Source of the DNA: Verrucomicrobiales bacterium
Lineage (GTDB): Bacteria; Verrucomicrobiota; Verrucomicrobiia; Limisphaerales; UBA9464
NCBI GenBank assembly: GCA_005801385.1
Contig: SYEM01000012.1
Span: 1 to 34,294, forward strand
Length of the DNA: 34,294 nucleotides
Direction of reading: 5' to 3'
Shown in pieces: positions 3,199-19,098 of the stretch. The position numbers and the translations under genes are program-made. Under the pieces are notes generated by a model. The model was not told the origin of the DNA, searched no databases, and saw only the letters and a program-made list of their open reading frames with translations. Each line of letters opens with the position of its first letter. The stretch's first letter is position 1.

Positions 3199-3245
3199 TG
3201 AGAGGCACGGGAGGTGTGCGCGGATTTAATGCCAAACGGCTCTCA
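3199..3245. other. Inverted repeat in the divergent cysI / exported-protein intergenic region
   Basis: The 289 bp between the divergent cysI and the exported-protein gene hold an inverted repeat with arms TGAGAG (3199-3204) and CTCTCA (3240-3245), separated by 35 nt that include an AT-rich patch (ATTTAAT). It could form a hairpin in either leader transcript or be a regulator site. I see no canonical promoter boxes, no riboswitch consensus and no Shine-Dalgarno sequence for cysI. Confidence 0.25.
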
Positions 3246-3315
3246 GTTCCGAGAAACCCTCCCGCCTGGGCTCTCAGTGAAACCAATCCTTCCCATCCTC
3301 CGATCCCATCATTCC

Positions 3316-4026
3316 ATGAAGCCCATCCTGAGACACGATCCCACTCTACTGCTGATTCCCATCCTGACGTTTTGGTGCACCTCCTCGGCACTGGCAGCCA
3401 CGGGTTCCATCGTTCTGGAAAGCAACCAGTCCTCCACGCCAGGCAGCCTCAGGAATGGGGGCTCGCCGATCGGGGACGGAGACATCAAAGCCCTACCGTT
3501 CACTTCCGGCACCGGTGCCCTCGATCTGACATTGGTGGAACTTGGTCTTGTGACATCCTCGGCCGCAACGGCGGGAACCTACCAGGTCAATTTCAACCTG
3601 TATTCGGCGTCGGCCACCGGAGTTCCCCAGACGCTGTTATACACAGCCTCGTTCACCCCCAGCATCACATCCATCTCGGCGTGGTATTCCCTTCCGATTT
3701 CCTACTCCCTCACTCCATCCACTGCCTATGCGTTTGGATTCGAGGCCATCGGAGCCTCTGTCAACACGGACGTGAAGTGGTCGAACACCGCATCGCCCTC
3801 GCTTTGGCCACCGCTCGCGTCTAACGGCTACTCGGGCCTTGGATCCGACGCCTACGGCTATGACCTGGTGGGGGCAGGGAGGGTTTGGACGGCGAAACCC
3901 ACCGACAACGCCTTCCGGCTCTACGCGGTCCCTGAGACCACCGCGGGCGTCCTGCCGGGCCTCGGCTTCGGCCTCGCCACCTTTGGAGTCCTTCGGCTTC
4001 GACGGCGTCGGAATCAGGATCGCTGA
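3316..4026 (+). CDS. Exported protein with a PEP-CTERM-like C-terminal anchor
   Basis: The function is unknown. The 236-residue product starts with a signal peptide (MKPILRHDPTLLLIPILTF, cleaved near SALA-A). A beta-rich, Ser/Thr/Gly-rich body follows, with no cysteines after the signal region. The C-terminus has the order VPET, a hydrophobic glycine-rich helix, then RLRRRR. This is the tripartite PEP-CTERM sorting signal, with T in place of the final P of VPEP. Family knowledge: such proteins are cut and attached at the envelope by an exosortase and are often linked to exopolysaccharide. The frame is open from 3214, but the ATG at 3316 begins the signal peptide directly. It is divergent from cysI and convergent with the glycosyltransferase gene. 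No exosortase gene is in the window. Confidence 0.8.
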   Translation: MKPILRHDPTLLLIPILTFWCTSSALAATGSIVLESNQSSTPGSLRNGGSPIGDGDIKALPFTSGTGALDLTLVELGLVTSSAATAGTYQVNFNLYSASATGVPQTLLYTASFTPSITSISAWYSLPISYSLTPSTAYAFGFEAIGASVNTDVKWSNTASPSLWPPLASNGYSGLGSDAYGYDLVGAGRVWTAKPTDNAFRLYAVPETTAGVLPGLGFGLATFGVLRLRRRRNQDR

Positions 4027-5377: not shown

Positions 5378-6259
5378 TCAGCCCCGGAGTGCCAACACCG
5401 TCGTGGTCGCCACCAGGACCCCAAACACACCCCAGGCCAGCCTCCGCAGGCCCGGCTCGAATCGATCAGGAAGGCACACCGCCACCCCACCCACCAGCAC
5501 ACCGCCCAGAAACCCACCCAGATGCGCCAACCGGTCCGAGTCGGGATCGGTCCCCAGCAGGATGAACAGCAGGGCGCCGGTGCCCAACGAGGAAACCACC
5601 CGGCGGTTGCCCCGCCGACCCCGACGCCACAACGGGATGGCCTGGGCCGCCAGCATCCCGAGAGCGGCCAGCACAAGCCCTGAGGCGCCCAGCCCGCGGT
5701 AGGGATCGGATCGGAGGGTCATCGCGAACACGTTCGCCGCAGCCCCCGCGAGGAAACAGCCGGAGAGCGTCACGCCCAGACCAAACCGGGCCGTCGCCAA
5801 CCCGAGGAACACCAGGCCCATGACGAGATTCGAGACCAGATGGGCCACATCCCGATGGAGCCATTCCGCGGTGAACATCCGCCACCATTCGCCCGCACGG
5901 AACCGTTCCGTATCGAACGCGGCGGACCCGACAGGGCCACCCGTCCAGGCAAAGACGAACGCAACCGCCAGCGCCCAGAAGACCACCCGGCCATCAAACC
6001 AGTAGTCCGAACCCGGCACCTCGTGCCGCCACTCGAACCCGCGGTTCTCCCGGAGATACTCCCTCAGGACATCCCGCGCCCGACCGGCATCCGAATCCGC
6101 CAGCCGCAGCTGCCACCGGGCCGTCGTCGGGTCGCGATCCAGGAACACCTCGATCCCCTGACTCGCCAGCACCAATGACCAGTCCAGGGCCTGACGCTCG
6201 GTCCGCGCAGGGATCGAGACAGGCATGAGATCGGTCGGGGTCACTCGGTGACTCTCCAT
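5378..6259 (-). CDS. Rhomboid-family intramembrane serine protease
   Basis: The 293-residue protein is a predicted membrane protease that cuts substrate helices within or near the bilayer. The rhomboid core is complete: HLVSN (H140, N144), the active-site motif GASG (S193) and the late histidine in HLGGFLGG (H246), embedded in about six hydrophobic segments. The first roughly 75 residues are soluble and resemble the small DUF2007-like modules sometimes found in front of rhomboids. Residues are numbered from the ATG at 6257-6259; an ATG 11 codons later is also possible. It lies 54 nt after the VIT/PEP-CTERM gene on the same strand, so it is probably co-transcribed with the operon upstream. The substrate is unknown; the membrane proteins encoded just upstream are candidates by position only. 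Confidence 0.88.
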   Translation of the reverse strand: MESHRVTPTDLMPVSIPARTERQALDWSLVLASQGIEVFLDRDPTTARWQLRLADSDAGRARDVLREYLRENRGFEWRHEVPGSDYWFDGRVVFWALAVAFVFAWTGGPVGSAAFDTERFRAGEWWRMFTAEWLHRDVAHLVSNLVMGLVFLGLATARFGLGVTLSGCFLAGAAANVFAMTLRSDPYRGLGASGLVLAALGMLAAQAIPLWRRGRRGNRRVVSSLGTGALLFILLGTDPDSDRLAHLGGFLGGVLVGGVAVCLPDRFEPGLRRLAWGVFGVLVATTTVLALRG

Positions 6260-6313: not shown

Positions 6314-8983
6314 CTACGTCCAACGCCGCCTGCCCCACACCAGCAGCACCAGACCCGCGGCCAGCAGCAGCCAGGACTGCGGTTCCGGCACCACCTGCGG
6401 CGTCGTCAACGGATCCACCGGCTTCAGCCCGGCCGCGGCATACTGGGCCCGGGTCTCCAACACCACCGCCCCGCTGACCGGGGTGACAAGCTGCCAGAGC
6501 CCTGCCCACTCGACCGCCTCACCCACCCTGCGCTGACCCGTCAGGTCCAGGATGTGGTCCCGGGCCCAGAGCCGCACGAGATGCCGGGAGCCGCGGGTCT
6601 CGACACCGGGGGCGACAACCACCCGTTCACGACGCCACTCGCGCCCCCCCTGCACTCCTCCCAGCTGGTCGAGACACCGCGTCAGATCCGCCTCAAGACC
6701 GTCGATCCGGGGCCAGACCCGGAGATGGGGTCGCGCCCCCGGGGCCTTCGTCACGAGATTGGGTCCCGGACGGATCTCGAAATCGACCATGGTGACGCGG
6801 CGATCCCCGACCCGGTCCATCGACTGAAGCCACGCGGCCGTGTCGCCGAGCAGGACGGGCACAGGCCCATGGATCCAGAGGACCTGTCCCTCCGGGGATC
6901 CCGTGACCCAGTCCCAGGCTGCCTCCAGCGCCGGGATCGGATCCTGGCCACCCACAAAGGGCGGGGAGTTCCAGACGAAGCGGTCCATCTGGTTCGTGGC
7001 CGCCCGGAAGGGGCCTTCCAACACCTCCGCCACCCGATGGACCCCATCGGACGCCACATAGATCCGGAGGTCGCCACGAGCCGTGGAGGCACCGAGCCCC
7101 TTCCGTATCGCCTCCCAGGCCTCCCGCCCGTCGACGCCTCCGTCCACCACGATCGCGAGACGCCCCGGAGGCGAGGCGGGCAGGTCGACCAGGGTCTGCC
7201 GCACCCAACCCGTCGGGGTGGACCGGTCATCCACCGCCCACGCGCTGGGACGCGGGGAGGAGTCCACGACAAACGGGATCGGATCGAATCCGTCGGACAC
7301 GCGGGACTGCTTCAGGCCGCTCCTCAGGACCTCGGGTTTCGAGGCCTCGGCGCGCCAGCCACTGGGAACGCGCGCAGGCGCCTGGCCACCTTCCAGCCAG
7401 AGGTGATGCTCGAGCGCGGGATCGATCCGGAAGTTCCGTTCCGTGAACCGGGGCCAGGTGCACTGAAGCTCCCCGGTGCCGATCGGCAGGAGCAACGCGG
7501 TGATGCCCAGACGCACCTTCATGGTCCCGCCCCGCGGCTCGATCGGGAAACACTGCATCAAGACGCGGTCGGGTCCAGAGGTCGTGACCAGGATCGGATC
7601 CCGTCGCTGCGCCACCGCCACCTGCTGGTACGCCGCCCGGGTCTCGCCCCGTCCGGCGAAGGCTGCCTCCCGTTCCTCGCCGTGCACCCACAGGGTGACC
7701 CGCGAGACGACACCGCCGGACGGCAACTGGATCTCCGCCCGAGCCTCCCGCTGGCGGCTGTCGTTGTCGTTCTGGAACTCCAGGGTCCACTCCACGTACT
7801 CCCACCCGTCGGGCACGGACACCTGGCCATCCAACCGGGAGGATCGCAAGGAAAGCCCGGACACCTGCCCTGCCACCGTCTCGCCTCCAAGGGACCGGTC
7901 CCACTCGAAATCCGACAGCACCTGTCGTCCTACGCCCCATTGATGGTTGAGGGGAGGGCGAACCGCATTGAACGGCTGACCCGTCACCTGAAAATAGACC
8001 TGATGGACGGCCTCGGCCTCCGGCGGGCATCGGTTCAGGAGATTGTCCCAGATCGCGACCCGGCGACCGTAGCACGCCCTCAGAAGGACGTCGGGATTCC
8101 CCCACCCCCGGAGGCGCTGGACGGCCTGGAATCGCTCGCCTTGTGAGTCGCCATGAACCGCGGTCCGAATCAGCTCCTCGGTCAGGAACCCCGGCAACGC
8201 CGCCAGGCCCAGAGCCGCCACCACCCCCCACGACAGCACCCACGCCCAACGGGGCCATGGGTGGCCGTTCTCCCTCGCCTCAATCCGGGCACGGCGCCAG
8301 AGGATCCACCCCACGATCCACGCGATGAGCGGCGTCAGCGGAATCAACCCGAGACCGAAGAACAGGAGTCCCAGCAACGCGAAGGGATAGGTCGGCGCAA
8401 AGGCGGCCGCGTACGCTCCAGAAACCCCAAGGGCCATGGCCAGGAGCCACGGATAGAGTCCGGGTGCGGAGCCTGGCCGACGGGACCGGAACCACAGGCC
8501 GAGTGCATACACCGCAGGCACCAGAAGCAGGAGGATTCCGTGGACGGGCGTGGGAATCGGATCGATCAGCTCCAGCGCCGAGAGACGCTGGGTCCACTCG
8601 AGGCCGATCGTGCCCAGCGGCAGCAGCACGCCGAACAGGCCGAGCAGGACCTCCACCGAGATTCTGCGGAGCCTGGATCGGGGAGGATCCGGAGGCACCC
8701 CGGGGAGGGTCGGCGGTGCCGGGTCGGCGATCGCACCTGTCCCGTCACCCGATTCCCCCACCGCCGGCTCCTCCAGCAGCATCGGATCCACGCGGGCCAG
8801 AAGACGTCGGACATCCACCTCGGTCACCACGGTCAATCCCTGGGCCGCCGCCTCCTGCATCACATGCTCCCGGAGGTCCGACATCACCTCGTCCGCCTCC
8901 GCACCATCGGCCTCGAATCGACGGCGATGGGCACGGAGACGCTCTTCGAGGAATTCCCGCGCCGGGGTCGTCCAGGAGCTCAC
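6314..8983 (-). CDS. Multi-domain membrane protein: HAAS, transmembrane helices, VIT domain, PEP-CTERM anchor
   Basis: The 889-residue protein has an unusual build. Residues 1-70 form a charged helical domain like the HAAS signalling domains that accompany PadR regulators. Residues 108-265 hold about six transmembrane helices. Residues 375-500 resemble a VIT (inter-alpha-trypsin-like) domain, with the ETRAAYQQ core. Residues 606-760 look like a vWA fold, but the metal site reads D614-G-G616-V-D618 instead of DxSxS, so it is probably degenerate. The tail is VPEP (865-868), a hydrophobic helix and GRRR, a textbook PEP-CTERM signal. The start is a GTG at 8981-8983 that overlaps the PadR stop codon (GTGA). 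The architecture resembles MSEP-CTERM proteins of other phyla. Its biochemical role is unknown; a sensing or envelope-scaffold role is inferred. Confidence 0.85.
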   Translation of the reverse strand: MSSWTTPAREFLEERLRAHRRRFEADGAEADEVMSDLREHVMQEAAAQGLTVVTEVDVRRLLARVDPMLLEEPAVGESGDGTGAIADPAPPTLPGVPPDPPRSRLRRISVEVLLGLFGVLLPLGTIGLEWTQRLSALELIDPIPTPVHGILLLLVPAVYALGLWFRSRRPGSAPGLYPWLLAMALGVSGAYAAAFAPTYPFALLGLLFFGLGLIPLTPLIAWIVGWILWRRARIEARENGHPWPRWAWVLSWGVVAALGLAALPGFLTEELIRTAVHGDSQGERFQAVQRLRGWGNPDVLLRACYGRRVAIWDNLLNRCPPEAEAVHQVYFQVTGQPFNAVRPPLNHQWGVGRQVLSDFEWDRSLGGETVAGQVSGLSLRSSRLDGQVSVPDGWEYVEWTLEFQNDNDSRQREARAEIQLPSGGVVSRVTLWVHGEEREAAFAGRGETRAAYQQVAVAQRRDPILVTTSGPDRVLMQCFPIEPRGGTMKVRLGITALLLPIGTGELQCTWPRFTERNFRIDPALEHHLWLEGGQAPARVPSGWRAEASKPEVLRSGLKQSRVSDGFDPIPFVVDSSPRPSAWAVDDRSTPTGWVRQTLVDLPASPPGRLAIVVDGGVDGREAWEAIRKGLGASTARGDLRIYVASDGVHRVAEVLEGPFRAATNQMDRFVWNSPPFVGGQDPIPALEAAWDWVTGSPEGQVLWIHGPVPVLLGDTAAWLQSMDRVGDRRVTMVDFEIRPGPNLVTKAPGARPHLRVWPRIDGLEADLTRCLDQLGGVQGGREWRRERVVVAPGVETRGSRHLVRLWARDHILDLTGQRRVGEAVEWAGLWQLVTPVSGAVVLETRAQYAAAGLKPVDPLTTPQVVPEPQSWLLLAAGLVLLVWGRRRWT

Positions 8984-9318
8984 TCGGCACCTCCCACCTT
9001 CTGTGCGCTGTCATGCATCGTCTCGATGTAGGCGTTCATGGTCTTGAGTGTCCGACGTCCCTCGGGGGTGAGGGCGTAGTATTTGCGGGCCGGACCGCTG
9101 GCCGACTCCTCGAGTCGGGTGCTGACCAGTCCGGCGACGCGGAGCCTCGACAGCAGCGGATACAACGTGCCCTCGGTGAGGCCCAGACCGGGCACCTCGG
9201 ACAGCTCCTTGACCAGCTCGTACCCGTAGCGCTCGCGGACGGCGAGGGTCCGGAGGATGCACAGCTCGATCACGCCCTTGCGGACCTGCACCACCCAGTT
9301 GTCGAAGAAGTCTGTCAC
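8980..9318 (-). CDS. PadR-family transcriptional regulator
   Basis: The 112-residue winged-helix DNA-binding protein has the family landmarks YGYELVKEL and EGTLYPLLSRL (recognition helix), the wing around RKYYALTPEGRR, and a short C-terminal dimerisation helix. It starts with a GTG at 9316-9318 that overlaps the stop of the membrane-protein gene before it, and its own stop overlaps the GTG of the HAAS/VIT gene after it. This suggests translational coupling. PadR proteins usually repress their own operon and release DNA when a signal arrives. Pairing with a HAAS-domain membrane protein is a known arrangement, so the two probably form one signalling unit. Confidence 0.93.
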   Translation of the reverse strand: MTDFFDNWVVQVRKGVIELCILRTLAVRERYGYELVKELSEVPGLGLTEGTLYPLLSRLRVAGLVSTRLEESASGPARKYYALTPEGRRTLKTMNAYIETMHDSAQKVGGAE

Positions 9319-9878
9319 GGAGTCCCCTTCCCTTCACCAAGGTGGTCCGCCGCAGCCACAGCGGACCGCTGAACTCGCCTCACCCGGAGGAGACTCCAAA
9401 GGCAGAGTCCAGCCGAGACCGCGACCCAGACGGGCTGGGCGGTCACCACCACGAAGGGCACGTCGATGAACCCCTCCCGGGTCTCCGCCCCACCCAGGAT
9501 GTCCCGGATCTGGCGCGGCAGAGAGACGAGTGTCAGCCACCCCAGCGGAAAGAGGAGCCCCTGGAGGCCGAGGAACCATCGGAGTCCCGGGCGCTCGGAT
9601 CCCGGAGTTCGGAGGAGCCCGACCAAGGCCACCGCCTGCGCCACGATCAGCAGATCACTGTAGGCGTAGGGCCACGTCCCCAGGGTGGAGAACCGGAAGT
9701 TTGACAACGCAATCCGGTAGTGTTCCCCCGACAGACGGTCATTGAACCCCATGGCATGCCCCGCACTGTCGACCGTCTCCCAGGGCGTGTTGGTCATCCC
9801 CGCATCCAGGGCGACCACCAGCAGCGTGACAACGAGGCTGGAAACGACCAGCACCACGGGGAGGAGACGGGTATGCAT
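9315..9878 (-). CDS. Four-helix integral membrane protein of unknown function
   Basis: I do not recognise this 187-residue protein. It has about four hydrophobic segments: residues 5-25, a pair around residues 72-90 and 100-120, and one around 145-165. An extracytoplasmic loop of about 45 residues follows the first helix, and a charged cytoplasmic tail ends the protein. The start is the ATG at 9876-9878, 4 nt after the lipoprotein stop. Its stop overlaps the GTG start of padR. By position it belongs to the PadR/HAAS/VIT operon and may be part of the same envelope module. Confidence 0.75.
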   Translation of the reverse strand: MHTRLLPVVLVVSSLVVTLLVVALDAGMTNTPWETVDSAGHAMGFNDRLSGEHYRIALSNFRFSTLGTWPYAYSDLLIVAQAVALVGLLRTPGSERPGLRWFLGLQGLLFPLGWLTLVSLPRQIRDILGGAETREGFIDVPFVVVTAQPVWVAVSAGLCLWSLLRVRRVQRSAVAAADHLGEGKGTP

Positions 9879-9882
9879 TGTC

Positions 9883-10263
9883 TCAATGCCCCGAGACCCG
9901 GTCCGAGACTTGGATCTCGAGGTCCGTGCCGATCACCGCCCGGATCCGATAGCCACCCCGGGGTTCCACGTATCCCTGGGATCCGGAGTCCATCCTCCGG
10001 CCCCCCGCCTCGAATTCGATCCTCACCCCGGATTCACTGATCGGCCGCACCACGATCCGTCGTCCCTCCCCCGCTCGCACCGTTCCGATCCGCTCCGTGA
10101 ACCCGGTGCCCGACACCACCAGATTGCTGACCGTCTGGGGCGAGTCGTTCCGCAGCTCCACCTCGGGACTGCCGGAGCATCCGACGAGCCCCGAAAGCAC
10201 ACCGACCAGGCACAGCCATCGACCGGGACTCCACCGATCTCTCCCGTTGCCATCGCCCTCCAT
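9883..10263 (-). CDS. Small lipoprotein
   Basis: The 126-residue protein has a basic N-terminus, a hydrophobic stretch and the lipobox LVGC (cysteine at residue 29). Signal peptidase II cleavage and lipid attachment are therefore expected; Ser at +2 would favour the outer membrane under the E. coli rule. The mature part of about 98 residues looks beta-rich (VELRNDS, RIEFEAGG) and has no recognised domain. It is the first gene of the run leading to the PadR/HAAS/VIT operon, with 4 nt to the next gene. The promoter should lie in the adjoining intergenic region. Confidence 0.75.
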   Translation of the reverse strand: MEGDGNGRDRWSPGRWLCLVGVLSGLVGCSGSPEVELRNDSPQTVSNLVVSGTGFTERIGTVRAGEGRRIVVRPISESGVRIEFEAGGRRMDSGSQGYVEPRGGYRIRAVIGTDLEIQVSDRVSGH

Positions 10264-10589
10264 GGGCTACATTTTTATGCAAGGTAGCTGGCGATGCAAG
10301 GTCGGAGTCGAATCCGGGGAGGGGACGGAGACTCACACGGCGACGCGGAGGCATGGAGCAAGTGTCGGAAGACAGGAAGGAGGTGGACCCGGCTTCGTCA
10401 TGGATCCCGTGGATCGGTTGAGTGGCAGCGCTTCGATGCGGGGAAGCCATGCCAGGAGGCTTCTCCTGTGAGGCGTACCAGGGCTCCCTCCGGCAGGTCC
10501 TCGCCCAAGATTCCAGAAGGAGGTCTCCCAAACCGTCTCTCCTCCGCGTCTCAGCGTCACCGCGTGAGTCCCCTCCCCTTTGCCGCTCC
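10264..10589. other. Intergenic region holding a repeat element
   Basis: This 326-bp stretch lies between the lipoprotein start and the recR 3' end, and I see no gene in it. It contains a repeat element with inverted ends (listed separately). The AT-rich patch ATTTTTATGC at 10270-10279, just upstream of the lipoprotein start, is the best place for that operon's promoter or leader, but no clear -35/-10 pair can be assigned. Confidence 0.5.
10318..10576. repeat. Dispersed repeat element with imperfect inverted ends, copy 1
   Basis: The left arm (10318-10350) and right arm (10542-10576) are imperfect inverted copies of each other. Both start from the outside with GGAGGGGAC and run through a CACRCGG-GACGC core to GACGCGGAG. 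About 190 bp of unique sequence lies between them. The same arms, in the same inverted arrangement, occur at 21277-21300 and 21594-21626. No ORF or transposase is present, so this is a short non-autonomous or REP/MITE-like element, or a pair of dispersed intergenic repeats. Confidence 0.55.
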
Positions 10590-14692: not shown

Positions 14693-15964
14693 TCAGGAAT
14701 TCCGTGGACTGCGTCCCATCGACTCGATGGGGCCCGCCCAACAGGCCCCGCGCATCAGATCTGTCTGACCCACCCCCTCGAACGGACGTTCGTCCGCGAT
14801 GAGATGCAGGACCGTCTCGGCGGCGGAACCGGAGACCCAGCCCTGGACGGTGTCGACAAGGTCCAAGCGGCCCTTGGGCAAGGGACGATAGGGAAACACG
14901 GCGGCATGAAAATGGCCCTGGGCGGTGGTACCCGAACCGATCGGACGGAACCACGCGGCTCCGTCCTGCGAGGGATTCCGGGTCGCTACGCCGACGATCA
15001 GCAGTCCATGCCGCTCGTCGCTGCGCTCGGTCGTGAAACTGATCCAGTCGCGGACCCCGGGGAACGCGAAGGGATCCTGATCCGCAGAGGGCGATCGTTG
15101 AAGCGAGGCCCCGATGACGCAGGCGCCCTCGGCGAGGAACGCGAAGCCGGCCGCCGCCCATCCGGTGTGGTCCAGTATCGCCTCGACCGCCTCGGAGAGG
15201 CCGACCACCCCACGACCGGATTTCGCAGCCTCGAAGCGGAAGAGCCGGGACGGGGTGCCGCGCACACCGATGCCGTACTGCAGCTGGATCTCCGGGACCA
15301 GCTGACCCTCGGACGTCTGGTAGTCCGGGACACTGCTGCCATCGGTCGGCAGCGAGATCGCCGTCCCCGCCACCGCGAGCGATTCTCCCAGCCGCCCCAC
15401 CACGTCCGCCGCCTGGGTCCCAAACCCGCCCAGACCCACGAGCAGGGTGTCGATCCCGCATCGGACCGACTGGATGTCGGAAGGCCGAAGGAGTCCGGAG
15501 GCGAGGCCTGCCGGGTTGCCCAGGAGGATCGCCTCTAGGGAGGTGACCGGTCCAAGGTCATGCGACTCGAACTCGACGCCTTCCCTGGTCCAGCGAGTCA
15601 CCGCGGGCTCCGGGGTGCAGGCCGTGGCGACGGCCGCGACCACGGGAGCCACGGCGTTCTGAAGTCCCTGCACCAGCATCGAGGCGATCCCGGACAGCTT
15701 CAGCACGGAGAACACGGAGTCGGTCGGACGCACTACGCGGAGGTGTCCCTTCGCCGCCTTGAGCTGCTTGTAGTGCTTGAGCAGGACACGGATGCCGGCC
15801 GAGCTGACATAGCTGACCTGGGAAAACTCCAGAGTCACGCGATGGTGTCCGGAGCGGATCGCGGATTCGATCGTCTGGTCGACGAGGTCGGCCCAGTTGG
15901 CGTCGAGACGGCCGTTCAGCCTCAGTTCGTGGCCGTCGCTCAGAGAATGGGCGGTGATTTCCAT
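14693..15964 (-). CDS. STAS-domain protein fused to an unrecognised domain of about 300 residues
   Basis: Residues 1-105 form a STAS (anti-sigma-factor antagonist-like) domain with the phosphorylatable loop VSSAGIRVLL (S54/S55), as in RsbV/SpoIIAA. The remaining 318 residues are not a domain I recognise. They are rich in Gly and small hydrophobic residues, with GLGGFGTQAADVVG in the middle and GHFHAAVFPYRPLP near the end, and they have no transmembrane helix. The gene lies between the tandem binding protein (4 nt) and the permease (9 nt). The STAS part could be a target of the RsbW-type kinase of the same operon, or a regulatory subunit of the transporter as MlaB is in the Mla system; both are inferences. 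Confidence 0.8.
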   Translation of the reverse strand: MEITAHSLSDGHELRLNGRLDANWADLVDQTIESAIRSGHHRVTLEFSQVSYVSSAGIRVLLKHYKQLKAAKGHLRVVRPTDSVFSVLKLSGIASMLVQGLQNAVAPVVAAVATACTPEPAVTRWTREGVEFESHDLGPVTSLEAILLGNPAGLASGLLRPSDIQSVRCGIDTLLVGLGGFGTQAADVVGRLGESLAVAGTAISLPTDGSSVPDYQTSEGQLVPEIQLQYGIGVRGTPSRLFRFEAAKSGRGVVGLSEAVEAILDHTGWAAAGFAFLAEGACVIGASLQRSPSADQDPFAFPGVRDWISFTTERSDERHGLLIVGVATRNPSQDGAAWFRPIGSGTTAQGHFHAAVFPYRPLPKGRLDLVDTVQGWVSGSAAETVLHLIADERPFEGVGQTDLMRGACWAGPIESMGRSPRNS

Positions 15965-15968
15965 GGGG

Positions 15969-18038
15969 TCATTTGGAAGGGGTGGAGACCCCCGGGTTGG
16001 CTGGGGGCGATGCGGATCGGGTCTTTGCCTCGAACTCGCCGTAGGCCTTGAGCAGATCGTCGGGAAACCGGATCCCTAGCCTCTGGGCCCGTGCGATGTC
16101 CAGCCAGACGACGGGATCCGACACATTCACCAGCGGAATCCCTGCGGGCTTCTCGCCGTTCAGGACCCGGCCGATCGGCGTGGCGGCGGCGAAACCCGGG
16201 GCATAGAAGCCGAGTCCCACACAGGCCGTCGCACCGCGCTGCGCCGTGTCGGGATCGTCGACAAACACCGGCAACCGGGCCTCGTGGGCGACCGTTGCCA
16301 CAGCCTCGAATGCCTGGAGCACCGTGTTGTCTCCCGGCACGTAGATCGCCTTCACCCCACGTGCCGCCAGCGCCTGAGTGGCCTGGAAGACATCGGCCGA
16401 GGTGCCGACCGTCACCTCGGCCAGCTCGATCCCCTTCGCCTTGAACAGGCCACGGGCGAGGTTCACCACCTTCGTCGAGTTGGCCTCGGACGCGTTGTAC
16501 AAGGTGCCGATCAACGAGGCGTCGGGAAGCGTGCGCCGGATGGCATCGACCATCTCGGGCACCGGCGGGAACGAACCGACCCCCGTGATAAACGGCAGAT
16601 GGTTCGTGAACGTGGTCCCTACCCCGGCGGCCAGCGGATCGAAGCAGTAGGTGAGCACAACGGGTCTGTGCTTCACCATCGAGCAGGCGCCTGAGATGAC
16701 CGGTGTCGTCATCGGGACGATCAGGTCCACCTCGGCAGCATCGAGGGTCTGGAGGATGGCCGGGATGTTGGCGATCTCCCCCTGCGCGTGGGTGCGCTGG
16801 ACGGTGAGGTTGCGTCCCTCCTCGTAGCCGAGGGCCCTGAGCCCATCGAAAAGCCCTTTCATGCAGAGTTCCGCCCCGGCTTCGGGTGCAAAATAGGCAA
16901 GTCCGATCCGGTACTGGCGTCCGGGCACCGCCTTCGGGGATACCTCCTGGGGCACCCCACGCCGCATCATGCGGGGCACGGGCAGGTTGGTGGCCGTTGC
17001 CGTGATCCAGCCCGTGGCCTTCGCTCGGATGTCGGCCGGGAACGACCACCGATTCTTCAGCAACGGCAGCACGGTCTCGTTCACCAGGAACGTCTCGGGC
17101 ACGAAGTTCTCGACCGGAATCGTCGCCGGATCGCGGCCATCCAACACGTCAGCCGCCAGCTGTCCCACCGAGCGTCCGACCTCACGGTAGTTGGCGCCCA
17201 GGTCGAACAGGGCCCCGAGCTGCACATTCGGTGGCAGGCAGGTGAAGGCCGGGATGCCGGCCCGACGGGCGCTCATCAGCAGCGCCTCGGAGGCGGTCGA
17301 CACCGTGATGTCGCCACTCATCCACAGCGCCTCGATGCCACGCGAGAACAGCGATGCCGCAGCTTCGATGGCGGCGGTGCTGCTGTCGGCGTTGGCCTCG
17401 ACCAGCTCAATCCCCAGATCCCTGCAGACCCTGCGGGCGATCATCGTCTGGGCCACGGAGTTCGCCTCGGCCGCGTTCCACACAAGTCCCACCCGCCGGA
17501 GCTCCGGCCGCATGGCCTTCGCGATCCGCAGCGTGTTCTCGACCGGCTGCATGCTCCCGTAGCCGGTCATGTAGGGCGGATGCTGCAGGTGGTTGGTCGC
17601 ACTGATGCCGACCCCGAGGCCATAGGGATCGGTGACCAGACCAAACACATGACGGGTCCGGCTCCCGTTCTTGTTCGCGTTGGCGACCGTCTGCAGCGAT
17701 GGCGTGCTGAGGGAGATGACCAGGTCGTAACCGCCCCCGGTCACTTCGCGGGCGATGGTATTGGCCGTGCCCAGATCCCCCTCGGCATTGAACCGCTTCA
17801 GCCGGATCCGGCCCCCCTCCTCGTATCCGCGGGCCGCGAGGGCCTCGACGACCCCGTCGGCACCATCCTCTAAGACGACCAGGGAGGCATGCTGGACGAG
17901 GGCGACCCGGATCGGCTGGCCCGCCTTGCGGTTCCCCTGCGCCGAGCGACGCGAGCCGCGGTCGGAATACAACAGCACAGCGCCGGACAGGGCGATCAGC
18001 AGGAGACCCAGCGAGAGGCGACGGATGGCTTCGATCAT
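15969..18038 (-). CDS. Membrane-anchored tandem TrpX-type ABC substrate-binding protein
   Basis: The 689-residue protein has a single N-terminal hydrophobic helix (LSLGLLLIALSGAVLLY) with no lipobox or clear cleavage site. Two homologous binding domains of the ABC_sub_bind (PF04392) type follow, at about residues 42-345 and 372-675. The repeats align in order: IRVALVQ with YRIGLAY, LAARGYEEG with LRALGYEEG, YDLVISLSTPSL with VDLIVPMTTPVI, and VGLVWNAAEANS with IGTLYNASEANS. The usual family member has one domain and is a lipoprotein, so the fusion is notable. It should deliver ligand to the permease encoded downstream, or act as a ligand sensor for the STAS/kinase pair. It lies 24 nt after the STAS gene and 4 nt before the STAS fusion. 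Confidence 0.88.
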   Translation of the reverse strand: MIEAIRRLSLGLLLIALSGAVLLYSDRGSRRSAQGNRKAGQPIRVALVQHASLVVLEDGADGVVEALAARGYEEGGRIRLKRFNAEGDLGTANTIAREVTGGGYDLVISLSTPSLQTVANANKNGSRTRHVFGLVTDPYGLGVGISATNHLQHPPYMTGYGSMQPVENTLRIAKAMRPELRRVGLVWNAAEANSVAQTMIARRVCRDLGIELVEANADSSTAAIEAAASLFSRGIEALWMSGDITVSTASEALLMSARRAGIPAFTCLPPNVQLGALFDLGANYREVGRSVGQLAADVLDGRDPATIPVENFVPETFLVNETVLPLLKNRWSFPADIRAKATGWITATATNLPVPRMMRRGVPQEVSPKAVPGRQYRIGLAYFAPEAGAELCMKGLFDGLRALGYEEGRNLTVQRTHAQGEIANIPAILQTLDAAEVDLIVPMTTPVISGACSMVKHRPVVLTYCFDPLAAGVGTTFTNHLPFITGVGSFPPVPEMVDAIRRTLPDASLIGTLYNASEANSTKVVNLARGLFKAKGIELAEVTVGTSADVFQATQALAARGVKAIYVPGDNTVLQAFEAVATVAHEARLPVFVDDPDTAQRGATACVGLGFYAPGFAAATPIGRVLNGEKPAGIPLVNVSDPVVWLDIARAQRLGIRFPDDLLKAYGEFEAKTRSASPPANPGVSTPSK

Positions 18039-18062: not shown

Positions 18063-18452
18063 CTACTCCCCGGACCCATGGGCCTTCTGGCGGGCGATCA
18101 GATAGGCGTCGAGCTCCGCCGTGTTGGAGAAGATCTTCGTGCCGGGAACGGACCCAATGATCTGGAACACCTCCCGGATCTGGGGCTGCAGATGGACGAA
18201 GGTCACCTGCCCGCCCTGCTGTTTCTGCTGCTTGCTCGTCAGGAGGAACAGTCGGATGCCGGCACTGGTCACCAGGTTCAGTCCCCCGAGATCGAAGACC
18301 ACCTGGACCGGACGCGACGCCACGGCCGGCGTAAGTCGCGACTCCAGAAGGTGGACCGTGGTGCTATCGAGGGAGCCTGCGAGCTGGATCGTGACGCGAT
18401 CGCCCCCGCCGGCGGCGGGGTGGTGTTGGACGGTGACCTGGAGTTGGCTCAT
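18063..18452 (-). CDS. STAS-domain anti-sigma-factor antagonist-like protein
   Basis: The 129-residue stand-alone STAS protein has strand-helix order as in RsbV/SpoIIAA. The loop carrying the phospho-acceptor reads LVTSAGIRLFLL, with S63 at the position of the serine phosphorylated by RsbW-type kinases. The Asp usually two residues before the Gly loop is replaced (VTSAG rather than MDSSG). A C-terminal extension of about 20 residues is charged. I used the ATG at 18450-18452; the frame is open further up to 19037 but overlaps the kinase gene. It is 43 nt after the kinase gene, the usual pairing for a partner-switching module. Confidence 0.88.
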   Translation of the reverse strand: MSQLQVTVQHHPAAGGGDRVTIQLAGSLDSTTVHLLESRLTPAVASRPVQVVFDLGGLNLVTSAGIRLFLLTSKQQKQQGGQVTFVHLQPQIREVFQIIGSVPGTKIFSNTAELDAYLIARQKAHGSGE

Positions 18453-18495
18453 GGGCGGGAGGAGAGATGGGGCTGTCGAAAACGAGAGAGGATCC

Positions 18496-18927
18496 TCAGA
18501 CGGACGGCTCGGCGGCGGCCCGTTTCCGGAGGACGACCCGATTGTGTCCGTCGACCCGGGAATAATCCAGCGCATCGAATAGGTTGCGGAGGAGATGGAT
18601 TCCAAGACCCCCGATCGGACGGTCCTCCACGGGCAGATCGGTATCGGGCTCCGGCAACGACCGGGGATCGAACGGTTGGCCGTCATCCTGGATTGACACC
18701 ACCAGCTCGTCCCCGGACAGGCGGATGCCGACGCGGATCCAGTGCTCGAGGGCGTCGTCGTAGGCGTACTTGATGCAGTTGGTGACCAACTCCTCCACCG
18801 CGAGCAGCGCCAGATATTCCGCCCCGGCGAAGGCGCCCCGCGACTCGAGCCAACGGGAGATCGCCTCCATCGCCGGGGAGAGATCCTCGGGGCGGTTCCG
18901 GATCCGGAGCTCGAGCGGTTCGGCCAT
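18496..18927 (-). CDS. RsbW/SpoIIAB-type serine kinase (HATPase domain)
   Basis: The 143-residue GHKL-fold protein has the N-box EELVTNCIKYAY (E46, N50), the G1 box DDGQPFDP (81-88) and the G2 box GGLGIHLLRNLFD (106-118). These are the marks of anti-sigma-factor kinases that phosphorylate STAS partners. The ATG at 18925-18927 gives a normal start; an in-frame ATG 14 codons upstream is less likely. It is the first gene of the locus, followed by a STAS gene. No sigma-factor gene and no PP2C phosphatase gene (RsbU/SpoIIE-like), the other usual partners, is in the window. The kinase may therefore control something other than a sigma factor. Confidence 0.9.
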   Translation of the reverse strand: MAEPLELRIRNRPEDLSPAMEAISRWLESRGAFAGAEYLALLAVEELVTNCIKYAYDDALEHWIRVGIRLSGDELVVSIQDDGQPFDPRSLPEPDTDLPVEDRPIGGLGIHLLRNLFDALDYSRVDGHNRVVLRKRAAAEPSV

Positions 18928-19098
18928 GGGAGACGCGACATCCGGTGCAAGGTTCCACCCGGAGCCCAACCACCGTTCCCCAACATGGCGACCCGTGACG
19001 GGCTACGCCAAGCCCCTTCTGTGAAGTGCCCCGACACCCGGACCGCTTCGGGACTGCTTCGGGGTTTCCAAGGAGTCCGAACCCGCTACGGTCACCCC

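Follow-up and report, generated by a model that had tools for sequence, protein, structure and literature searches.

A padR gene coupled to the gene of a HAAS-VIT-vWA-PEP-CTERM membrane protein: a probable autoregulated sensor operon in Verrucomicrobiota

Results

Here we have analyzed a 34,294-nucleotide (nt) stretch of DNA from a Verrucomicrobiales bacterium (contig SYEM01000012.1 of assembly GCA_005801385.1; hereafter the window), in which the gene of a PadR-type regulator is joined to that of a large, multi-domain membrane protein. The source assembly spans 3.9 Mb in 330 contigs and is 80% complete; the locus nearest to the window, 90% identical, lies in a Verrucomicrobia metagenome-assembled genome, and close loci are likewise named Verrucomicrobia. 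The operon runs on the minus strand and encodes, in order, a 126-residue lipoprotein (9883..10263), a 187-residue protein with four transmembrane (TM) helices (9315..9878), a 112-residue PadR-type winged-helix putative repressor (8980..9318; PF03551, 75 bits) and an 889-residue protein (6314..8983). padR, the sole PadR gene in this genome, shares 4 nt with each of its two neighbors in a GTGA overlap, its stop overlapping the start of the large gene, and 4 nt separate the end of the lipoprotein gene from the start of the 187-residue gene. A sequence-only reading of the window had described this layout, and its open reading frame coordinates, both overlaps and the position of the lipoprotein gene are all correct; it had further proposed that the genes form an envelope-sensing unit in which a HAAS domain of the large protein talks to PadR.

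Within this operon, padR and the large gene form a conserved pair. A search for the large gene (E <= 1e-20) covered 58 near relatives and 320 genomes of the order, and 58 of the 320 carry it. Around some 50 loci we then compared up to 19 kb for recurrent neighbors, of which padR was the only one. It stands directly upstream of the large gene at every locus with intact upstream DNA, with one exception (genome G105), the two frames either sharing 4, 8 or 17 nt or lying 1-2 nt apart. The PadR orthologues in this position are 53-99% identical, and the coupling is kept while the large proteins are only 33-55% identical. Because the coupling, together with the operator described below, is kept over dozens of divergent loci, the arrangement is not due to chance. 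Judged by this comparison, the conserved core is padR plus the large gene only: the pair stays fixed, and its small envelope partners can be exchanged.

The sequence-only reading had taken the 889-residue protein to combine HAAS, TM, VIT, vWA-like and PEP-CTERM parts, and profiles, orthologues and a structure model bear this out. The AlphaFold model, built with 34 orthologues (mean predicted local distance difference test score, pLDDT, 83.5), places three N-terminal helices (residues 1-70) ahead of a disordered linker (75-102) and TM helices (102-277); a VIT domain rich in beta strands, a vWA domain of Rossmann type and a last helix follow. The five TM helices, seen as helices in the model, are encoded at 8153..8680; as read from the sequence, loops rich in Arg (near 166-171 and 230-237, and before residue 108) alternate with the others, which would put the HAAS domain inside the cell and the VIT-vWA part outside. 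The VIT domain (residues 390-492; 7508..7816) is matched by PF08487 (3.3e-8; 34.1 bits for a cut-off of 26.5) and is found in all 34 orthologues. The vWA domain (residues 600-780; 6644..7186) has no match in Pfam but is clear in the structure model (PDB comparison Z 13-16, root-mean-square deviation (rmsd) about 3 Å); its metal-site motif is reduced, with an invariant first Asp and a third position that is Ser in 26 of the 34 orthologues and Gly in the window copy (DGG). Residues 374-850 align with human inter-alpha-inhibitor heavy chain 1, the blood protein ITIH1 (6FPY/6FPZ; Foldseek 4.5e-18; VIA-align Z 16.6 over 423 residues, rmsd 7.7), and the predicted ectodomain is thus an ITIH-like VIT followed by a vWA fold. 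At the C-terminus (6317..6400), a P-x3-PEP motif, a TM helix and an RRR tail make up a predicted PEP-CTERM sorting signal, scoring 20.3 bits with PF07589 (cut-off 20.7), a profile that matches 25 of the 34 members at E <= 0.05. P862, P866, E867 and P868 are invariant among the 34 orthologues, and a TPVSGAVVLE stretch ahead of the tail is nearly so. By motif, TM helix and Arg-rich tail, the large protein appears to be of the PEP-CTERM/exosortase type and would be a candidate for exosortase cleavage.

Residues 1-70 (8774..8983) correspond to the HAAS domain, predicted to be cytoplasmic by the positive-inside rule and assigned from a family consensus and a three-helix model. The consensus of the N-termini scores 36.4 bits with PF22564 (cut-off 27), and individual orthologues exceed the same cut-off (31.6 bits in G046 and 27.7 bits in G106); because consensus and orthologues pass, we assign the window copy to HAAS as well. 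Modelled alone, the domain folds into three helices (pLDDT 91.7), the third broken at residue 66. A profile of these N-termini also finds HAAS domains of other architecture beside other padR genes (in G106 and G105). The GxP motif occurs in about half of 33 aligned N-termini. As a separate observation, loci L198 (G106:C187) and L199 (G105:C176) hold a second PadR-HAAS dyad, with the HAAS domain at the N-terminus of a frame of more than 1800 codons and of other architecture.

A scan of 85,000 species genomes yielded 79 loci of the large gene, many beyond the order, in Lentisphaerota, Kiritimatiellota, Planctomycetota, Pseudomonadota and Desulfomonile. The Pseudomonadota and Desulfomonile homologues match from about residue 112 and keep the TM, VIT, vWA and tail parts without HAAS. 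When HAAS and PadR were scored independently with window-family profiles, leaving out contig-end loci, 55 loci had both, 13 had neither, one had HAAS without PadR (L136) and none had PadR without HAAS (Fisher p 4e-13, indicative only, as the rows are related). The sequence-only reading had held that homologues without PadR or HAAS would weaken the unit; such homologues exist, but they are without both at once, which strengthens the HAAS-PadR link. This pattern bears on a first alternative, in which an ordinary PadR answering a small molecule controls a surface-protein operon and the HAAS-like domain is a non-signalling helical appendage on the membrane side. Many PadR proteins do bind small ligands (LmrR and PadR among them; PMC6624303), and the weak HAAS score of the window copy would fit; yet HAAS is gone exactly when padR is gone while the rest of the protein stays, and a passive appendage would not track the regulator. 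We therefore regard this alternative as fairly unlikely.

A second alternative is that the joint pattern reflects common descent only, one old gain of a padR-HAAS cassette without functional link. HAAS-bearing loci do cluster on the tree, many of whose forks are unresolved. However, a maximum likelihood tree of the part common to all homologues shows about seven joint changes of HAAS and PadR and one further loss of padR (of its 75 inner branches 20 are unresolved, and fewer joint changes may be required if only well-supported branches are counted); several separate joint changes, coupling conserved at 33-55% large-protein identity and a maintained operator all speak against descent alone, and we consider it very improbable.

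Upstream of padR or of the operon's first gene lies a palindrome of 21 bp with the consensus CTACCTTGC-N3-GCAAGGTAG, TACTATG being a common variant of one arm. It was first spotted by eye in upstream sequences and then tested with a matrix from 19 sites; simple dyad counting had missed it because the site is degenerate. In 733 kb of loci the matrix gives 48 matches above 15 bits, practically one per locus, and none in shuffled sequence. Upstream of 10263, where the sequence-only reading had suggested a search for PadR sites, the window carries the predicted operator CTACCTTGCATAAAAATGTAG (10267..10287, minus strand; position weight matrix score 19.6), just ahead of the first operon gene, and a weaker second copy, CGACCTTGCATCGCCAGCTAC, shifted by 17 nt (10284..10304, minus strand; score 12.5), with similar tandem copies in L044 and L075. 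By eye, a predicted promoter (10272..10299, minus strand) combines a -35 element TTGCAT (10294-10299) with a -10 element TAAAAA (10272-10277) inside the operator. Furthermore, in 17 loci the start of a -35 element, TTGAC or similar, lies 19 nt ahead of the operator, so that the -10 element falls inside the palindrome, a position typical of a repressor site.

The operator follows the gene pair. It is present at 52 of 54 loci with HAAS and PadR and at none of the 13 HAAS-less loci (best score 12.2), and it recurs at distant Lentisphaerota, Planctomycetota and Kiritimatiellota loci outside the matrix training set. That HAAS, PadR and operator come and go together is, in our view, strong comparative evidence that HAAS talks to PadR. 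A consensus search of 20 whole genomes, with a pattern that does not catch the divergent site of the window, mostly gave the site of the operon itself, usually as the only match, which suggests that the regulator acts locally; the site pattern is as expected for autoregulation. A wider PadR regulon was rejected on this result; extra TACTTTG-N5-CAAAGTA matches beside creD-like genes, with PadR not in reach, likely belong to another regulator. This palindrome (L189, L193, L194) is an observation in its own right: genomes hold several copies each, most of the seven pattern matches in G299 being of this form, and creD-like genes adjoin it in L189 and L193, with no PadR near.

The search for an exosortase gene that the sequence-only reading had suggested is positive: the genome of the window encodes an exosortase elsewhere (G000:C170, 133 bits), not adjacent to the operon. 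Across the order, 289 of 320 genomes carry one, including 57 of the 58 with the large gene (the exception is G290) and 232 of the 262 without it; at 289 of 320, mere presence is uninformative, and the exosortase seems remote from the large gene in most of the order. HAAS-less loci differ in this respect, as in 11 of them the large gene is followed by an XrtQ/XrtT-like exosortase and then by a gene, K1, whose product resembles the C-terminal part of exosortase T (XrtT). In L153, L164 and L169, padR, the HAAS protein gene, the exosortase and K1 stand together in one tight run.

These loci argue for an account that overlaps the one we favor, namely a regulated exosortase sorting system in which the VIT-vWA protein acts chiefly as an effector, either substrate or partner of exosortase, and PadR-HAAS only sets its amount by product feedback without an outside signal. 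The 11 HAAS-less loci with adjacent exosortase and K1, the three tight runs and the fact that the closest NCBIfam families are exosortase-type VIT proteins all fit it. On the other hand, no exosortase adjoins the large gene in the window or in most Verrucomicrobiota, and both readings may hold together; we put it forward tentatively, as a possibility well short of an even chance. Apart from this argument, in Proteobacteria and others K1 (L159, L160, L166, L171, L174, L176, L180) seems to accompany the exosortase and the VIT protein consistently. On the plus strand of the window, 3214-4026 encodes a secreted protein with a PEP-CTERM-like C-terminus (VPE..TM..RRRR) that Pfam does not call, possibly a second exosortase substrate.

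The remaining members of the locus are of narrower distribution. The four-TM protein is a lineage-specific operon member, found in the same genus only; a TM protein that this operon encodes in L033, L100 and L101 resembles it faintly (DxAGxxxGFND, E ~0.01). The lipoprotein gene is an accessory of the operon in this family, and its homologues either separate padR from the operator or come just after the large gene. In other lineages these positions are taken by different small proteins, either membrane-bound or secreted, including a multi-TM protein whose gene overlaps padR by 4 nt. A family of small TM proteins marked by RLxLGxWP...W..D is repeatedly encoded in the padR operon, before or after the pair (L030:7261-7641 in operon orientation, genome G001; also L032, L033, L038, L068, L071, L077, L083, L084, L089, L091, L100 and L101); two members were scanned and matched no Pfam family above cut-off. 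In the sister genome G001 its gene sits between those of the lipoprotein and the four-TM protein, and the window has none.

Past the large gene, at a distance of 54 nt, lies a rhomboid gene (5378..6259, minus strand; PF01694, 62 bits), found beside the unit in the same genus only. The glycosyltransferase, recR and ABC genes adjoin the unit with the same restriction and were, like the rhomboid, rejected as members, and a sugar-isomerase-like gene neighbors the large gene in the same genus only. Nor does the rhomboid qualify as a rhombosortase (45 bits for a cut-off of 84). From the gene order that the sequence-only reading proposed, then, padR directly before the large gene is conserved; the lipoprotein and four-helix protein are lineage accessories, the other neighbors are confined to the genus, and the rhomboid is not part of the unit.

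Two further observations may be recorded. At L040 (genome G048, about 8690 in operon orientation), a frameshift at a run of G, within the linker that follows HAAS, splits the large gene, owing to either an assembly error or a true separation of HAAS from sensor. Elsewhere in the window, two STAS-domain proteins (14693-15964 and 18063-19037) are encoded on either side of a gene (15969-18038) whose product carries an ABC substrate-binding domain at its C-terminus, next to ABC permease and ATPase genes.

Discussion

In the explanation that we favor, and think quite probable, the operon encodes an autoregulated HAAS-PadR sensor dyad, with an exosortase-type VIT-vWA protein as the sensor, and is adjusted to the state of the envelope. 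PadR would bind the 21-bp palindrome over the -10 region and repress the operon to which its gene belongs. Translated from the same message as PadR, the large protein would sit in the inner membrane with HAAS in the cytoplasm, five TM helices, the VIT-vWA part outside and a PEP-CTERM tail for exosortase, and would report through HAAS: a change in ectodomain, membrane or tail processing would pass to HAAS and alter PadR's hold on the operator. Candidate inputs include a ligand or stress at the ectodomain, the protein's own amount, and exosortase processing, as the ectodomain would be anchored in the membrane at both ends as long as the tail is uncut. In a more novel reading, the dyad would be a sorting-state sensor for exosortase, with PEP-CTERM cleavage or its failure shifting ectodomain tension or fold and, through the TM helices, HAAS and PadR, switching the operon, such that the sensor is its own substrate; we think this quite unlikely. 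More broadly, the dyad probably senses envelope state or surface-protein sorting and adjusts the operon accordingly.

What carries this explanation is comparative. Coupling, operator and the joint presence of HAAS, PadR and operator emerge from comparison of loci, and the folds of the domains are predicted ones; a physical HAAS-PadR contact, repression, a signal and exosortase cleavage are what we infer. The part of the sequence-only reading in which HAAS talks to PadR is well supported by joint presence (55, 0 and 13 loci with both, with PadR only and with neither, and one exception) and by an operator that follows, and envelope sensing is itself inferred.

Several findings weigh against the dyad. 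The window's own HAAS copy scores only 14-18 bits for a Pfam cut-off of 27, and it and its family have VDP in place of GxP, so the detail of the groove may differ in this lineage. PCP_red is a competing Pfam match in some members (up to 24.9 bits, cut-off 32.5), and a search with the HAAS fold gave no match at E <= 0.001, the best, weak one being a PCP_red domain. In G105 (L076/L136) padR is lost while the HAAS protein is kept, with a palindrome (13.4) 67 nt upstream of the large gene, and L139, a locus with PadR, has no operator match. Finally, co-occurrence with exosortase had to be discarded as evidence, since so many of the genomes without the large gene also carry one (the 232 of 262 above).

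HAAS-PadR pairs have been proposed from gene context as an alternative to two-component systems, and this family offers a clean natural test of the proposal, as some versions of the same protein have HAAS and others do not, and PadR and operator go with it. With a 21-bp operator and a short operon, the proposal lends itself to direct testing in vitro. The G105 locus is a ready case of HAAS without its regulator. Furthermore, an unstudied regulator is here tied to exosortase sorting, whose own regulation is hardly known, in Verrucomicrobiota and neighbors.

In our literature search we found no paper that joins PEP-CTERM with PadR, or exosortase with a VIT domain, and the terms exosortase, von Willebrand and Verrucomicrobia do not occur in the main text of the HAAS study (PMC11237479). 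As far as that search shows, the HAAS-PadR kind of regulation is known and the exosortase-type VIT-vWA sensor architecture has appeared in no paper. Among curated families, TIGR04477 (XrtN system VIT protein) and TIGR04286 (MSEP-CTERM) both match all 34 orthologues, mainly over VIT (best 1.9e-39 and 1.4e-17), and share an exosortase-type C-terminus; by contrast, the window protein scores 110 bits for a cut-off of 250 and 41 for one of 150, has no adjacent exosortase, adds HAAS and PadR and ends in a PEP tail. It is accordingly not a member of the TIGR04477 XrtN VIT family, at 110 of 250 bits and without the neighboring exosortase.

The VIT-vWA ectodomain (model residues 374-850) resembles that of ITIH1 (PDB 6FPY/6FPZ), from which it differs in being bacterial and membrane-anchored, with 11-12% identity and a reduced metal-site motif. 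Proteobacterial VIT-vWA proteins encoded beside an XrtQ/XrtT-related exosortase (L159, L160, L166, L171, L174, L180 and others) are 34-39% identical over the TM-VIT-vWA-tail part, but their loci are without HAAS, PadR and operator and have exosortase and K1 downstream.

As to regulation, a HAAS domain altered by its fused sensor is proposed, in the main text of Ravi et al. (2024; PMC11237479), to change the adjacent PadR via a groove at the GxP motif, as an alternative to two-component systems; the fusion partners named there are PspC, LiaI-LiaF, Toastrack, FtsX/MacB, FtsW/RodA, VanZ and uncharacterized TM regions. In Listeria, a PadR-DUF1700 operon (LltR-Lmo0600) was measured to be strongly autorepressed, and phage-shock genes were mildly up in the repressor mutant (PMC6624303). 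Like such dyads, the window has a standalone PadR gene adjoining that of a TM protein with HAAS; unlike them, its HAAS domain is fused to five TM helices, VIT, vWA and PEP-CTERM.

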